A stretch of DNA of 64,000 nucleotides, from positions 1-64,000 of the IMG/VR virus record IMGVR_UViG_3300045911_000567; one strand, 5' to 3'. The position numbers and the translations under genes are program-made. Shown here in pieces: positions 17,557 through 46,401 of the stretch. Below the pieces are notes generated by a model. The model was not told the DNA's origin and made no database searches. It saw only the letters and a list, made by a program, of their open reading frames with translations. This DNA is from a virus. How positions within the stretch are numbered: the stretch's first letter is position 1; the number at the start of each line of letters is the position of its first letter.

Positions 17557-18428
17557 AGATCCAATTCTGATCTGAATCCAATAAAAACAGGGAATCTTGG
17601 CAAATCGAGCATACCAAGTTCCTGATACTTATACTTTATAATCTTATTTAGATATTTTTCTTTATTTGTCCATATCTCTTTACGAAGATCGTCGTCGAAA
17701 CCCGAACCTATATTAAAAACTTGTCCTGTTTTGATATTTTTCACAACGAGCGCGCCGAGCGTGTCAGATGCAACTAAGCCATCTTTTTTGCTGGATCTTT
17801 TTGACAATCCCAGTTCGTCTTTTTCTTTCTCGTTTGTGTTTTTGAATCTCTCTTCAAATCCAATTACTTCTGCTTCATCGTCTTTAAATCTTTTCAATTT
17901 AAGTAGTATCTGTTCACGAAGAGTCGATCTGCCGCATTTATATCTGCCCTTCGGACATCTAATCATAACTCCTTCATAGCCCATGGAAAGATATTTTTCT
18001 TCTATCTTCAGCAACTCTTCTTGGTTTTCTATCAGAACAGAAGGGACCAATTTGATCCTAGAGTCGGCAATCGAAGAATACCAGTTTTCTAATGACTTCA
18101 ATCTATTTTCATATGAAACATCGAGACTATCCTGAACATAATCAAAAGCATGAAATGTGAAATCTGGTTCTCCATCAAAACTCATAATTTTTGATTGTAT
18201 GTCTTGAAAAGATCCTGATGACATTACTTCGCCATCAATGCCATCGGGCAGTATAGTTTCTAACTGCTTTCTCACGAACCTATTCGGAAGGTCTTTGAAT
18301 TTTCTTGTGACTGCCTTTCCGTTTACTTTAAGGACTCTAATTCCATCTAACTTTGGTGTAACTATAACTGGAAATCTCAACAAACTTACATCTTCCAAAG
18401 TTTCTGCTAACAAGGGACGAGTTATCAC
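17553..18428 (-). CDS. ATP-dependent DNA ligase, short form
   Basis: 291 aa. Motif I KLDGIR (adenylated K26), VTRKFKDLPN with the conserved Arg, motif III FHAFDYV, motif IV YEGVMIR and motif V LLKLKRF, followed by a compact OB domain. It is shorter than T4 gp30 (487 aa) and closer in size to T7 ligase (359 aa). Seals nicks in replication and repair using ATP. The start is a GTG overlapping the upstream stop (GTGA). Confidence 0.9.
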   Translation of the reverse strand: MITRPLLAETLEDVSLLRFPVIVTPKLDGIRVLKVNGKAVTRKFKDLPNRFVRKQLETILPDGIDGEVMSSGSFQDIQSKIMSFDGEPDFTFHAFDYVQDSLDVSYENRLKSLENWYSSIADSRIKLVPSVLIENQEELLKIEEKYLSMGYEGVMIRCPKGRYKCGRSTLREQILLKLKRFKDDEAEVIGFEERFKNTNEKEKDELGLSKRSSKKDGLVASDTLGALVVKNIKTGQVFNIGSGFDDDLRKEIWTNKEKYLNKIIKYKYQELGMLDLPRFPVFIGFRSELDL

Positions 18429-40272: not shown

Positions 40273-40830
40273 TTAAAATCCTAATTTTCTTAACTTATTT
40301 ATCACTTCCGATGCCGATGTCCTTTGTATTGCTAGACCGCCGGCTGTTCTCCATTCATTGCAATTCTTATCGTAATCATCTATCAGTAGGTTTGGTTCGC
40401 CCTTGACATTTTTTGCAAATAACTGTTTTTGTGAGCGAGAAACCAAATGAATATTATCTACATTATTTATTCCAAGATGATCCTTAACCCATTGAAGTTT
40501 GTCGCGTTCGCAAATGTCTCTATTCATTGAAGTTGTTGCACTCAAGATGTTTGGTTTGTATTTTTTGACTGCTTCCCATAATTTTTTGCCGTCTCTTAAC
40601 CATCTCAAAGTCTGCCAAAAGTTTGGTTGTTGATATATGATTGACCAGCGAATATCATTAGCTTCGGTTTCGGAATATTCCTTAAGCCAAAATGAATGAT
40701 GAAATTTCGGATAACCAAATTTTTCTAAAATTTGATCTGCGCCTCTAGTAAAATCAACCAAGGTTTCGTCTAAATCCAGATATATTGTGGGCAAAGATTT
40801 GTCAATAATATAAGATTTCAAACTTTTCAT
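40273..40830 (-). CDS. HAD-superfamily phosphatase, 5'(3')-nucleotidase-like
   Basis: 185 aa. Motif I YLDLDETLVDF (residues about 17-27, nucleophile and acid Asp), motif II SATTS, and motif IV LLIDDYDKN give a complete HAD active site. The cap is small and helical as in deoxyribonucleotidases. The N-terminus MKSLKSYIIDKS resembles the targeting peptide of neighbouring genes but has Asp where a prohead-protease Glu is expected. Confidence 0.7.
   Translation of the reverse strand: MKSLKSYIIDKSLPTIYLDLDETLVDFTRGADQILEKFGYPKFHHSFWLKEYSETEANDIRWSIIYQQPNFWQTLRWLRDGKKLWEAVKKYKPNILSATTSMNRDICERDKLQWVKDHLGINNVDNIHLVSRSQKQLFAKNVKGEPNLLIDDYDKNCNEWRTAGGLAIQRTSASEVINKLRKLGF
40296..40303 (-). promoter_or_regulatory. 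candidate late promoter GATAAATA
   Basis: Minus-strand octamer 39 bp upstream of the Ig-like gene; an AGGAG ribosome site follows. Confidence 0.5.
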
Positions 40831-41689: not shown

Positions 41690-42115
41690 TCACATCACTT
41701 TTTTGACGGATCCGTTCGGTAGATAATGATATACTGCAACTTTTTGATTGAATCTTAATGCTTTCCTAATATTATTAGCTTTCATCACCGCACCAAGTTT
41801 CGTTTTTTCTTTTTCTGAAAAGAGTTGCTTTCCTCCTGCATCGTATACCACAACCACGAACAGATCGGATTGTTCTTGTACTACACTACCTAATTGTTCT
41901 GGATCGGCTTGCTCATTTGCTCTCTTCTCTGCATCTTTTCGTGCTTGATCCTGCTTGCGCTGTGCTTCTTTGGCGGCGAAATCTGCTCGTCGAGCTTGTT
42001 CTATCTCTCGGGTGTGTTTTTTTTGTAGTTGTTCTTTCTCTCGTTTCTGACGTTCCCGTACTTTTTGAGCTTGGGACTCAAACTCTTCTTGTAAGTATTT
42101 TCTAAATCGTTTCAT
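41690..42115 (-). CDS. coiled-coil protein with capsid-targeting-like N-terminus
   Basis: 141 aa. MKRFRKYLQEE fits the targeting-peptide pattern with a possible cut after LQE. Residues 12-75 are a very charged Ala/Lys/Glu/Arg helix (KKHTREIEQARRADFAAKEAQRK), then a small beta domain (LFVVVVYDAGGKQLF, KVAVYHYLPNGSVKKVM). A late-promoter-like TCTAAATA lies 57 bp upstream within the preceding gene. Candidate internal head protein. Confidence 0.6.
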   Translation of the reverse strand: MKRFRKYLQEEFESQAQKVRERQKREKEQLQKKHTREIEQARRADFAAKEAQRKQDQARKDAEKRANEQADPEQLGSVVQEQSDLFVVVVYDAGGKQLFSEKEKTKLGAVMKANNIRKALRFNQKVAVYHYLPNGSVKKVM

Positions 42116-43112
42116 AAATTTTTTTTCTAGTGCTATAACGAGATTTCTTTGCTAGATTCAATAATTCTCTTATATTTAGAGAAACGACATGAGCTATAAC
42201 TTTTTGTTTTTCATCTATATTTCTGAGTGCAAATAGTTGATGATGACCATCCAGAATATAATCATCTGACGAAACTACAAACGGCTTTTTAGCATCTGGA
42301 TGTTTTTTGAAATGCTCATATTTCTGTTTAACTTTTTGTAGATTTATTTCTGATTGAGTTGGCTTCAATTTGTCCAGTCGAATGTATTTTTTCGAGACTA
42401 AAATGCCCTGTTCTTTCAGTTCATCCAAAAAAGAGGATATGTCCCTCTCCGCAATCTGTGGCATCTCATTTCTGGTAAAACCTAATCCTTTTATTTTATG
42501 AATAATAGACTCGGCGATTTTCATACTCTTTTTCAATTCGTCGAACATTTCTCTGGCAAATCTTTCTGATAGACCAGATAGAGTCATCGAATAAAATGAT
42601 GCAAAATCATTTCGTTTGACTGCATCTCGCACTCTGGAAGCCGAAAACCCTTCCACTCCTTCGGCATCGGGATCTCTCAAACCAGCCGAGATAACCGCAA
42701 AATTTTTAATCGGCAGTCTTTTACTCTTATCTGGATGGTTTATGTATTTCTTTATCAAAGTATCGAATTCGGATACTCTATCGGCTCCAACTACCATCAC
42801 CAAATTTGCGTAGCCAATTGAATGTAGATATTGTATCACATCGAAGATTGTTTTGATTTGACTATTTGCTACGATATATTTCTTATGATTCGAAATTCCC
42901 ATAGCCAGATATTTTATTTTCTGTTGATATGATAGGGGATTCTTTCTAATATCTTGAGTCTGACTTAAAAAAATAAATGGTGTGGCATTTTCTTTTCTGG
43001 AAACCAACAGCATATTTTCAATAACTTTCTCATGTCCTCTATGAGGAGGATTCATTCTACCGAAGGTAAATACTGCTTTTTTACCCGATAAAATTTCACT
43101 TAAAAATTTCAT
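42102..43112 (-). CDS. NMNAT/cytidylyltransferase-like protein fused to ParB/sulfiredoxin-like domain
   Basis: 336 aa. Residues 12-165 are a nucleotidylyl transferase: FTFGRMNPPHRGH has the HxGH-type site (24-27), and GFSASRVRDA matches the ISxTxVR motif. Residues about 225-320 look like a ParB/Srx domain: IRLDKLKPTQSE, then VSSDDYILDGHHQLFALR with the DGxHR-type core (288-292). The first domain would transfer a nucleotide to NMN or a similar phosphate; the second binds or cuts nucleotides in relatives. N-terminus MKFLSE may be a weak targeting peptide. Confidence 0.7.
   Translation of the reverse strand: MKFLSEILSGKKAVFTFGRMNPPHRGHEKVIENMLLVSRKENATPFIFLSQTQDIRKNPLSYQQKIKYLAMGISNHKKYIVANSQIKTIFDVIQYLHSIGYANLVMVVGADRVSEFDTLIKKYINHPDKSKRLPIKNFAVISAGLRDPDAEGVEGFSASRVRDAVKRNDFASFYSMTLSGLSERFAREMFDELKKSMKIAESIIHKIKGLGFTRNEMPQIAERDISSFLDELKEQGILVSKKYIRLDKLKPTQSEINLQKVKQKYEHFKKHPDAKKPFVVSSDDYILDGHHQLFALRNIDEKQKVIAHVVSLNIRELLNLAKKSRYSTRKKIYETI
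42173..42180 (-). promoter_or_regulatory. candidate late promoter TCTAAATA
   Basis: Minus-strand octamer 57 bp upstream of ATG 42115, inside the end of the NMNAT-like gene. Confidence 0.4.
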
Positions 43113-43114
43113 TA

Positions 43115-43657
43115 TTAATCTTTTACTATCGCGTCGTAATAGTTATGTCTTAGTTCGTGTTTTAGTAGATCGCTGTCTCTGATAATATCTCGTAAAACTA
43201 ATTCAGCATCGCCGTTCTGGAGAGAAAATAGTAAAATTTTATTCGAATCTTTAGTTTGTTTAAGCATCTTGTTTATTGTTGAAAGGTCGAATCCATATTC
43301 TCTCAACTTATCTTTCTTGATTGCAGGAAGATTGGGATAAATTTTTACAGATTCTTTGAGTGAAACATCATTGGACTCGGAGAAACTCGCCGATGCTAAA
43401 TCTGATACATTATATAATATATGAGATGGTTCAACGCCGTGCGATTTTACTATATGTTCTACTGCGGCTCTCAACGAAGAAAATCTTTCATTCTTATTGG
43501 TTACATAACGTCCCGATGGTCTGTGGTATGCTACTGCACCAACACGGGCTTTATTAACGTAAACTGCTGCAAATGCAACAGAACGATTTGATGCCAGCCT
43601 TTCTAGTTTGACCACTGCACCTGACGACTCTTTAAGGTATGTGTTAAATTTTTTCAT
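43115..43657 (-). CDS. putative internal head protein, unknown
   Basis: 180 aa. MKKFNTYLKES gives a targeting-peptide match with a possible cut after LKE. The first half is beta-rich (VAFAAVYVNKARVGAVAYHRPSGRYV), the second helical. No known family. ACTAAATA ends 6 bp before the ATG, and its TAA is the stop of the upstream SprT-like gene. Confidence 0.55.
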   Translation of the reverse strand: MKKFNTYLKESSGAVVKLERLASNRSVAFAAVYVNKARVGAVAYHRPSGRYVTNKNERFSSLRAAVEHIVKSHGVEPSHILYNVSDLASASFSESNDVSLKESVKIYPNLPAIKKDKLREYGFDLSTINKMLKQTKDSNKILLFSLQNGDAELVLRDIIRDSDLLKHELRHNYYDAIVKD

Positions 43658-43663
43658 ATACTA

Positions 43664-43671
43664 TATTTAGT
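43664..43671 (-). promoter_or_regulatory. candidate late promoter ACTAAATA
   Basis: Minus-strand octamer 6 bp before ATG 43657; contains the stop codon of the SprT-like gene. Confidence 0.5.
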
Positions 43672-44398
43672 TTGCTTGTTGCTTATATAAAACTTTGCTT
43701 ATTTTACCTAAATCTTCAATATTCGACGTTTTTGTGTCGTAGTTTGCCACAGTTTTATATGACCACTTCATATTAACTTTAAATCTATGGTGTAACTTAG
43801 TATCAATAACAACAATCATGCCTTCTTTTAGTTTAGGAATAACCTTGCCAGATGTAAATAAATTTATGTGCTCAGAAGCGGGCTGCATGATTTCATTTTG
43901 TTTAGATAAAGGAAATAATGCTATAAAGTAATTGTCTATGTTCTCTTTTCTATAAATGAAGGCAATCATTGTTTTACTTGGAAGATGGTCATATTCATCG
44001 GGGTGGCCTGTATGATCTATTGGAATATCCATCCCTAGTTTTTGACTAAACTCTTTTCTATATTTCTGAAATACAGGACCATGCATACCATAATCACTAA
44101 TGCTATTTTTAGCGATAAAGGCATGTATCATTTCATGAGCCACAATCTTAGTCAAAGTTTCTTCTGTAAAATTCAGGGGAGCGATCACGATTTCGATTGT
44201 TTCAGGCAAAACAACTCTGCTCTGTTTGTATATTTTATATGTAGTCAATCCCATTTGTTGTTTAGGAAGTTTACCGAATTTGATAGGGATTTCTTTGAGG
44301 GCACCATTAAAAAGTTTAGCATCAAGCTCTCGGTAAATCTTCTGAAGAGTAGCATTATCTTGGACTTTTTCTGTTATGAATTGCTTGAATTTTTTCAT
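43667..44398 (-). CDS. SprT-like zinc metalloprotease with capsid-targeting-like N-terminus
   Basis: 243 aa. MKKFKQFITEK matches the targeting peptide, possible cut after ITE. LFNGALKEIPIKFGKL and IVAHEMIHAFIAKN (H88, E89, H92), then GMHGPVF (H106 as third zinc ligand) give the SprT/SPRTN protease site. A C-terminal small beta domain follows. If packaged, it would enter the host with the DNA and could cleave DNA-bound or chromatin-like host proteins. ACTAAATA lies 7 bp before the ATG, which also overlaps the upstream stop (ATGA). Confidence 0.75.
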   Translation of the reverse strand: MKKFKQFITEKVQDNATLQKIYRELDAKLFNGALKEIPIKFGKLPKQQMGLTTYKIYKQSRVVLPETIEIVIAPLNFTEETLTKIVAHEMIHAFIAKNSISDYGMHGPVFQKYRKEFSQKLGMDIPIDHTGHPDEYDHLPSKTMIAFIYRKENIDNYFIALFPLSKQNEIMQPASEHINLFTSGKVIPKLKEGMIVVIDTKLHHRFKVNMKWSYKTVANYDTKTSNIEDLGKISKVLYKQQAN

Positions 44399-46401
44399 AA
44401 TAGTCTATTTAGTACCTCTGGTACTGCCAAACCTTCGTTTCTTAGTGCTTCATCTGTTCCTTTTAGGATAGATTTAACCGCCTCTGGATAGATAAAATCT
44501 GGAGACAACACCGCCGAGAGAACTTTTTCGAATACCAGTAAATCTGAAGGAGAAAATTTAGGACCAAATAATAATTCTGTTATGATTTTTGGTGTAGTAG
44601 ATATGAAAGCCGACGATTTTGTCTGAAAATTTTTTGTTATGCCTCTTTTACCTTCTCTGGACTGGGTGGAAAAGAATAATCCCTTAGAATAATCTAATAG
44701 TAAGCGCTGTTGCTCAATTGGCTGTCCAGAATTTGATTTTGTTATTCTGAGTGCCACAAACTTTGCTATTTGATTCAATAATATATTTCTATAAATTCCT
44801 TTAAATTCACTTTCTGATGTTGCCGGACCATAATAAATCCATTCGCTATAATCCAAATTATTAACTAACATCAAATCAACCTGTACCGATTTATTGTGTT
44901 GTTTTTTATTTATGTTTACAATCGGAAATGCGAAAGACACGATTCCAAGACCTCTACTATCTTTAACAGAAGCAGAAATTCGTTTAATCTTAGAAACAAC
45001 AAAATCAAACAACTCTTCTCTATTAAAGGATTTTGTACTCAAAATAGATTTAGCTGATATTGCTATGTCGATGTCACCAGAAGATTCTCCTGGCAATTTT
45101 TTTCCCGCCGAACCCAGTACCCTGAGATCGCTTTTTTCTATATTTAAAACAGAAGAAACGGCGGATATGGCTGCTTTTATCGTCTCGGCTGCATTCTCTT
45201 GATCTAATCGCGAGACTCCTATTATTGCGTTTCCTCCTTCATTGAGTGAGGCATGGAAAGAAAAATTCAGTCGAGAGAATTCAAGTCTATCCACCAATTT
45301 TATCACACGACCAGATCTGCTATTAAGAGCAACAAAACCTTCCTGTCCCGTAACTCTGAAACCATCGCCGGTTTGAATGAAGGTGCTCATAGAAGATATT
45401 TGATTTAATTTTTTAAGAATGATCGATTTTAGTTCTACTATGTAAAGTTGATATTTTAACAACTCTACCAAACTTGATTGATTATCAACGAGAAATTTTA
45501 TATGTCTTTCTTTTCCGTATGCAGACCTATACTTTGATGAAACATACTCAATCAGGCCAGGAATATCGGAAACTGTCATTTGCTTGCCCGTTCTCACTAA
45601 TATATTGCTATACGCCTTGACGTGGGTAGATATAGGAGAGTTAGATAATTCATCTGCGAATGACCGGATACTTTTTAGTGATTGTTTTGCCTTTTCTATT
45701 AATGAATTTAAATACGAAATTTCGGTTTTATTAAATTGAACGCCGGAACTTACATTTTTTAATGTTGCATCGTCAAACCAAACATCTTTTATTTTTTTCA
45801 GTTTGGTTATATCAGGGCTGAAGCTGGCTTTCATTTTGCTCATCTCGGAACCCTTATATTCGGTGTGCCATACTATTCCCAACTGGGCAGAGAGTATGTC
45901 TTTTGCTAAGGGACTGTTGAGTGGAACGCCATACGTTAGGGTATTTGGTTTAAATAGCACCATTTCTTGACCATCTATTGAGTCCAGAAAAAGACTACTT
46001 TTAGTGAAGATTACATCACCCTGTAGGACCCCTTTTATTCCCAGAGCCGGAAGAGTTGCCAGAGCAATTTTTAATATCTCTTGTACCCTGTCACTATTAG
46101 CATGATTTAACTCTATATCTTTTGGCGTAAAATTCAATTTTGGATTATTAGATAAAACAGCTTTTGTTCCAACAAAAAATTTCTTTGTTTTGGGATCAAT
46201 TCCGGCAAAGATAGCAAGGGAGCCATCCCATTTAGTTGTAATCTTCGAATCAGAAACAGATCCCTCTAAATTTTTAATGATATCTGATAGAACATCGAGA
46301 GCATATTTTCCTCCTCGGGCACCATCATTAATGATGTAGTCCTCTACATGCTCAATGTGGGTATTTTTTGCTTCCGAGATGTATTGAAAAAACTTTTTCA
46401 T
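44395..46401 (-). CDS. DUF6267-like protein: RNA-ligase-like domain fused to pol-beta-type nucleotidyltransferase
   Basis: 668 aa. MKKFFQYISEA is the best targeting-peptide match, cut expected after ISE. KNTHIEHVEDYIINDG, TTKWDGSLAIFAG (KxDGS, K57), GVLQGDVIF and VLFKPNTLTYGVP resemble DUF6267 proteins of marine T4-like phages and the ligase/capping nucleotidyltransferase core. From 428, VLGSAGKKLPGESSGDIDIAI (G430-S431, D443, D445) and VQVDLMLV (D509) form a pol-beta nucleotidyltransferase site. Predicted to modify RNA or nucleotides, perhaps after injection. Confidence 0.7.
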   Translation of the reverse strand: MKKFFQYISEAKNTHIEHVEDYIINDGARGGKYALDVLSDIIKNLEGSVSDSKITTKWDGSLAIFAGIDPKTKKFFVGTKAVLSNNPKLNFTPKDIELNHANSDRVQEILKIALATLPALGIKGVLQGDVIFTKSSLFLDSIDGQEMVLFKPNTLTYGVPLNSPLAKDILSAQLGIVWHTEYKGSEMSKMKASFSPDITKLKKIKDVWFDDATLKNVSSGVQFNKTEISYLNSLIEKAKQSLKSIRSFADELSNSPISTHVKAYSNILVRTGKQMTVSDIPGLIEYVSSKYRSAYGKERHIKFLVDNQSSLVELLKYQLYIVELKSIILKKLNQISSMSTFIQTGDGFRVTGQEGFVALNSRSGRVIKLVDRLEFSRLNFSFHASLNEGGNAIIGVSRLDQENAAETIKAAISAVSSVLNIEKSDLRVLGSAGKKLPGESSGDIDIAISAKSILSTKSFNREELFDFVVSKIKRISASVKDSRGLGIVSFAFPIVNINKKQHNKSVQVDLMLVNNLDYSEWIYYGPATSESEFKGIYRNILLNQIAKFVALRITKSNSGQPIEQQRLLLDYSKGLFFSTQSREGKRGITKNFQTKSSAFISTTPKIITELLFGPKFSPSDLLVFEKVLSAVLSPDFIYPEAVKSILKGTDEALRNEGLAVPEVLNRLL
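44406..44413 (-). promoter_or_regulatory. candidate late promoter ACTAAATA
   Basis: Minus-strand octamer 7 bp before ATG 44398, inside the last codons of the upstream gene. Confidence 0.5.

Follow-up and report, generated by a model that had tools for sequence, protein, structure and literature searches.

A T4-like phage protein fusing a DUF6267 ligase-like domain to a family-X-polymerase-like domain behind a putative capsid-targeting leader

Gene and Fused Protein

The window analysed here is a stretch of 64,000 nucleotides from a T4-like virus of bacteria, taken from a 76.9-kb virus record with T4-type replication genes. On its minus strand it encodes a protein of 668 aa (44395..46401, ATG start), in which a short leader is followed by a DUF6267 ligase-like domain and a family-X-polymerase-like domain, two unrelated nucleotidyltransferase cores. 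Both cores are intact and their catalytic residues are conserved, and the polymerase-like family is recurrently linked to ligase-like and NMNAT-like partners in other phages. Our preferred reading, tentative and given less than an even chance, is a head-packaged end-repair enzyme or polyprotein with RNA as the likeliest substrate.

The fused ORF is also encoded in a second contig, L001 (residues 86–668, 100% identical). The initial annotation of the ORF had drawn on short motifs, and these were located at KWDGS 57, GDVIF 128, FKP 150, GSAG 430, Asp 443/445 and D509; they are not matches by chance. Sequence-only searches of the PDB, using the whole protein or a profile of either half as query, yielded nothing significant and relevant, and a literature search on DUF6267 and on phage family X polymerases in virions found nothing. 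Fold prediction, suggested at the outset as a check for both nucleotidyltransferase cores, recovered the ligase superfamily, with RNA ligases first, for one half and family X polymerases for the other. All coordinates within the fusion gene given below are on the minus strand.

DUF6267 Ligase-like Half

Residues 13–382 match PF19782 (DUF6267) with an E-value of 4e-91 and 306.6 bits against a curated cut-off of 27, covering 374 of 376 positions. The domain, with a covalent-nucleotidyltransferase-like core according to the model and VIA-align, extends over about aa 12–385 (45247..46368). DUF6267 relatives are encoded in 476 phage records, mostly of T4-like cyanophages; none of the 476 covers 80% of the query, and the cultured members lack the polymerase half.

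Residues expected of the ligase superfamily were invariant across 73 DUF6267 sequences. They include K57, D59 and G60 of motif I (KWDGS, aa 57–61, 46219..46233), with Lys57 presumed to be nucleotidylated; the motif III counterpart G128-D129 (46015..46020), where Asp replaces the usual Glu; the motif IV counterpart E354-G355 (45337..45342); and K368 and R372 of the motif V counterpart K368-L-V-D-R372 (45286..45300). These residues and the VIA-align results uphold the original placement of this half in the ligase/capping superfamily. The FKP element then cited is instead part of a conserved F-x-P-N stretch and not motif V. Motifs IV and V had been overlooked because a helical insertion of about 100 residues (~aa 225–333) separates motif III from motif IV.

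The AlphaFold2 model of the N-terminal half reached a pLDDT of 90.1 and a pTM of 0.85. Foldseek alone gave no significant match (best E 0.13), so the fold was assigned from VIA-align and the motifs. The best 45 rows of the VIA-align comparison were all ligases, led by Naegleria RNA ligase with a Z-score of 8.5 (184 aa, 3.8 Å), modestly above the chance level stated for the tool, and including fungal Trl1 (7.5), T4 Rnl1 (7.3), T4 Rnl2 (7.2) and human DNA ligases (about 6.5). Motifs and modelled fold together make the superfamily assignment solid; the Z-score alone would be insufficient. Neither the window protein nor the record matched PF09414 (RNA_ligase) at E ≤ 1. In the model, motif V is closely followed by the start of the polymerase part, so that an OB domain of the kind most DNA ligases have would not fit in between.

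Family-X-Polymerase-like Half

Residues 389–668 (44398..45237) matched nothing in Pfam and PHROGs, and stand-alone relatives of this half have at best marginal matches there. The AlphaFold2 model (pLDDT 95.7, pTM 0.89) was matched by Foldseek to family X DNA polymerases with an E-value of 7e-6, with 141 matches below 1e-3. VIA-align gave a Z-score of 11.0 over 191 residues for Pol lambda and 10.9 for Thermus PolX, with similar values for Pol beta and TdT. Palm and thumb are present in the model and the lyase domain is absent.

The catalytic Asp pair D443/D445 (SSGDIDI, 45067..45075; SGDIDI starts at 441) and the third catalytic Asp D509 (VQVDLML from residue 506, 44875..44877) are invariant in 38 sequences, as are the Gln-x-Asp and the Gly of the GS motif. 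LPGESSGDIDI and the Asp of VQVDLML fit the polymerase X signature. A second, unrelated nucleotidyltransferase had been postulated for this half, and the model agrees with its palm, thumb and three catalytic Asp; the anticipated likeness to tRNA nucleotidyltransferases gives way to a resemblance to family X DNA polymerases. At the profile level the family is nearly silent: the PF14792 palm profile did not match the window member at E ≤ 0.1 and reached 0.042 in the best of 38 members, the Pfam palm model being marginal in 2 of 38, and the RlaP profile (PF10127) matched none of the 38 at E ≤ 0.1. Stand-alone relatives occur in Lak megaphages, Agrobacterium phage Atu_ph07, Sinorhizobium phage Phosso, Flavobacterium phage immuto and about 80 IMG/VR contigs; a scan of a genome collection found no bacterial relatives.

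Leader and Head Packaging

The N-terminal leader MKKFFQYISE (46372..46401) aligns, up to MKKFFQYISE|A, in register with MKTYQEFIAE|A of T4 IPII/IPIII. In T4 IPIII, residues 4 and 7 direct targeting and residues 8 and 10 processing, and gp21 cleaves after L/I-x-E (PMC9026906). The targeting-type N-terminus noticed in the initial annotation therefore has the T4 capsid-targeting register, which is found in 4 of the 123 window ORFs of at least 80 aa, all within 41690–46401. A leader-like start is present in 55 of 78 DUF6267 ORFs versus 108 of 1590 other ORFs (6.8%), a count that includes related sequences; with a looser pattern and dereplicated sets, the figures were 44/59 and 97/709. Methylophilales phage Melnitz and Stenotrophomonas phage DLP6 are examples of cultured phages whose DUF6267 protein bears a leader.

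No prohead protease was found in the 77-kb record of the window phage, which is possibly a fragment; the records of relatives L095, L131 and L003 contain one. The NMNAT-like partner was detected by mass spectrometry in virions of cyanophages S-SZBM1, S-SCSM1 and S-CREM2, and the DUF6267 protein of S-SZBM1, which has no leader, is absent among the virion-proteome rows listed. Virion protein 90 of S-SCSM1, suspected to be a DUF6267 member, is not one.

Throughout two other loci, L118 and L133, consecutive genes in long runs share a capsid-targeting-like leader (MKHIQTFGEFINES, MKNIPTFEDFVNE) and have the appearance of operons of candidate injected cargo.

Domain Junction

The two halves meet at LNE|G (aa 386–389, 45235..45246; LNE|GGNA over residues 386–391), a sequence compatible with the prohead-protease motif L/I-x-E, and stand-alone homologues begin exactly there (E|GG or M|GG). 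In 31 of 53 polymerase-like copies, a hydrophobic-x-Glu triplet directly precedes the conserved (G/S)G start, against about 2% expected at any position, and seven leaderless copies have Met directly before it. These patterns in the polymerase-like family are an independent sign of leader removal. Since the junction has this form, a head protease could separate the two domains, and two enzymes might thus arise from the fusion within the head; alternatively, the junction may be a relic of a former leader. A wider version, in which polymerase-like, ligase-like and HxGH modules in varying order form a head-packaged polyprotein of repair enzymes, taken into the capsid behind a single leader and cleaved at L/I-x-E|GG by the prohead protease before injection, we regard as rather doubtful.

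Recurrent Module in Other Phages

The polymerase-like protein recurs beside ligase-like and NMNAT-like (HxGH) proteins, or is fused to them in either order. Of 34 non-redundant polymerase-like loci flanked by at least 6 kb, 18 had a ligase-like partner (DUF6267 or LIG3) within 5 kb, 21 an HxGH partner and 13 both. DUF6267 and LIG3 occurred together at none of the 34, a suggestive pattern of alternatives; profile comparison of the two gave a probability of 1% and so did not show common descent. DUF6267 usually adjoins, or is fused with, an NMNAT-like gene. Further ligase-like neighbours overlap or abut the polymerase gene in L096, L108, Atu_ph07 and Phosso, each matching PF09414 below the cut-off. 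Ligase-like partners of the stand-alone polymerase gave PF09414 E-values of 2.4e-5, 0.002, 0.085, 0.11, 0.13 and 0.004, all likewise sub-cut-off, and none of the ligase-like partner proteins had a DNA-ligase Pfam match.

Fusions follow the orders DUF6267-polymerase (window, L001), polymerase-DUF6267 (L112, L171–L173), LIG3-HxGH (L100, L130, L137, L140), DUF6267-HxGH (S-PM2) and HxGH-polymerase (L131, L150). In the nearest relative, L095, each of the two domains has its own gene, with four bases between them. This reshuffling in several orders indicates one shared pathway. The initial annotation had called two such activities in one chain unusual; the fusion is real, but the pairing is a recurrent phage module and not a one-off.

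Several members show further architectures. The L112 fusion runs on into an apparently degenerate HxGH domain, by reading. In L131 (4959–11717 of a 434-kb IMG/VR contig), and also in L150 and L151, an in-frame run of ORFs split by single stops comprises several polymerase-like copies, a ligase-like stretch and an HxGH domain; such a run may represent a giant fused protein with an alternative stop-codon meaning. The ligase-like part of these three was assigned by motif reading, and their iterated ligase-profile matches, which partly overlap the HxGH region, were not counted. An open ORF of 1416 aa in L139 (1–4251) contains PF12627 (PolyA_pol_RNAbd) and HD regions as in CCA-adding enzymes, a possible GNAT stretch and a polymerase-like domain, and is followed by a ligase-like gene. 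Flavobacterium phage immuto gp088 (L179 6914–9637, 907 aa) combines a second copy of the polymerase-like domain with an HxGH domain and with metallopeptidase motifs of zincin-like type (HEMIHH, HEIEH) that echo the SprT-like neighbour in the window; the adjacent gene encodes an NT5C-type nucleotidase, as at window 40273–40830. Synechococcus phage S-CREM2 gp156 (L176 6013–6726), a virion protein by published mass spectrometry, is a Pol-beta-type nucleotidyltransferase (NTP_transf_2, E 3.4e-4) located two genes from an NMNAT-like gene, and Lak-A1 encodes a similar protein (L006 6172–7050).

Genomic Neighbours in the Window

The fusion ORF lies directly downstream of a DnaB-like helicase gene in a DNA replication cluster, with genes reading as RecA/UvsX-like and family B polymerase upstream of the helicase. 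On the same minus strand, and overlapping the fusion gene by 4 bases, is a SprT-like metalloprotease gene (43667..44398; PF10263, E 3.5e-9) with the leader MKKFKQFITE. It is accompanied by a protein without known family with the leader MKKFNTYLKE (43115..43657, minus strand), by the third module member, an HxGH (NMNAT/cytidylyltransferase-like) nucleotidyltransferase with a ParB-like C-terminus (42102..43112, minus strand; PF01467, PF08857, phrog_3041, phrog_455), and by a further protein without known family with the leader MKRFRKYLQE (41690..42115, minus strand). A separate ATP-dependent DNA ligase is encoded at 17892–18413 on the minus strand (PF01068, E 7e-12), so the fusion is not the replicative ligase of the phage. 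No tRNA genes were found beside the polymerase gene in 35 related loci.

Proposed Role and Alternatives

Conservation of the catalytic residues in both halves argues for two active enzymes, and the combination of a polymerase-type with a ligase-type domain on a single polypeptide agrees with add-then-seal repair. Packaging, cleavage, activity and substrate are each things we infer. In the proposed mechanism, leader residues 1–10 would target the fusion to the prohead core, and the prohead protease would cut after Glu10 and perhaps after Glu388, releasing free ligase-like and polymerase-like enzymes. The enzyme or enzymes would be injected along with the phage genome; the polymerase-like domain would put nucleotides back at a damaged 3′ end or in a small gap, after which the ligase-like domain, adenylated through Lys57, would seal. 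The likeliest substrate would be RNA, notably tRNA that defence nucleases of the host cleave in the early phase of infection.

Add-and-seal repair overall is somewhat more likely than not in our estimation, because this assessment takes in both the RNA and the DNA version, and RNA is somewhat favoured as the substrate. RNA ligases come first in the ranking of the N-terminal half, which has no room for an OB domain; the partner proteins match RNA_ligase, if below cut-off; the relative L139 is fused to a CCA-adding-type region; the published RlaP system is a precedent (PMC7824862); and the phage has its separate DNA ligase. Several observations count against RNA: the solved folds closest to the modelled C-terminal half are DNA polymerases and not RNA-acting enzymes, the window protein itself has no RNA_ligase sequence match, tRNA genes were absent from the 35 loci, the gene sits in a DNA replication cluster, and for the N-terminal half Foldseek was not significant and the VIA-align Z-score modest. 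With the same delivery, an injected gap-filling polymerase and nick ligase might instead mend the incoming genome in the manner of base-excision repair or end joining. The fold of the C-terminal half, with the palm and thumb of Pol beta, Pol lambda and Thermus PolX, the position behind the replicative helicase gene, and the SprT-like neighbour, whose family includes DNA-protein-crosslink proteases, all speak for DNA, and an NMNAT-like partner could recycle NMN from an NAD+-dependent ligase. Since the ligase-like core is nearer to RNA than to DNA ligases and lacks OB-domain room, the phage already has its PF01068 enzyme and the partner proteins lack DNA-ligase matches, we consider repair of DNA rather unlikely.

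Nucleic acid need not be the target. The two domains, with the NMNAT-like partner, might transfer nucleotides to a protein, a small molecule, an NAD-like metabolite or a nucleotide signal and so act against host metabolism or signalling. The third recurrent partner is an HxGH nucleotidyltransferase, and cyanophage virions include NMNAT-like proteins for which NAD+ synthesis has been proposed (PMC9602691, PMC10665884); a polymerase-like palm and thumb would, however, be unexpected in a small-molecule nucleotidyltransferase, and the HxGH site looks degenerate, by reading, in some module members (L112, L124). We judge such a role unlikely, and simple NAD+ supply as the common role of the module is disfavoured, the HxGH site reading as degenerate in several members. 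Internal proteins packaged in T4-like heads often have no enzymatic activity, and the fusion might accordingly be head cargo kept for a binding or scaffolding role, its catalysis being of secondary importance or lost in the lineage. That is improbable given that the expected catalytic residues are all invariant in 73 and 38 relatives.

The analysis provides a testable identity for DUF6267, a family without assigned function in hundreds of cyanophage genomes, and for an unannotated polymerase-like family common to T4-like phages, jumbo phages and Lak megaphages. Phages would, if the enzymes are injected, bring their own add-and-seal repair kit as host nucleases strike; capsid-protease-processed polyproteins, if real, would represent a novel means of loading several enzymes by a single tag.

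Comparison with Known Systems

Pairings of a ligase with a Pol-beta enzyme and injected head enzymes are already known kinds. To these the present analysis adds an assignment for DUF6267, a polymerase-like family with a thumb, the joining of that family to DUF6267, a module of three parts and a junction that resembles a protease site. DUF6267 (PF19782)/phrog_455 is common in T4-like cyanophages and pelagiphages, and fusion residues 13–382 constitute a full-length member; the family has no assigned function, and the polymerase half of the fusion is missing from its cultured members. With RNA ligases (T4 Rnl1/Rnl2, Trl1, Naegleria Rnl) the N-terminal half shares the KxDG, EG and K motifs and the core fold, but it differs in its lack of a PF09414 match, its motif III Asp in place of Glu and the helical insertion between motifs III and IV. 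With family X DNA polymerases (Pol beta, Pol lambda, Thermus PolX) the C-terminal half shares palm and thumb, SSGDxD and the third Asp, but it lacks the 8-kDa lyase domain and has little if anything of the fingers; the minimal viral form of family X is African swine fever virus Pol X. RlaP proteins, ligase-associated Pol-beta enzymes proposed for phage RNA repair, likewise have a Pol-beta fold and travel with a ligase (PMC7824862), whereas the family described here bears a thumb, is fused and not merely adjacent, and has no RlaP Pfam match. Finally, the T4 internal head proteins IPII, IPIII and Alt carry, as the fusion does, a 10-residue leader with hydrophobic residues at 4, 7 and 8 and Glu at 10, but the putative cargo here consists of two fused enzymes and has, where they join, a further motif resembling a cleavage site.
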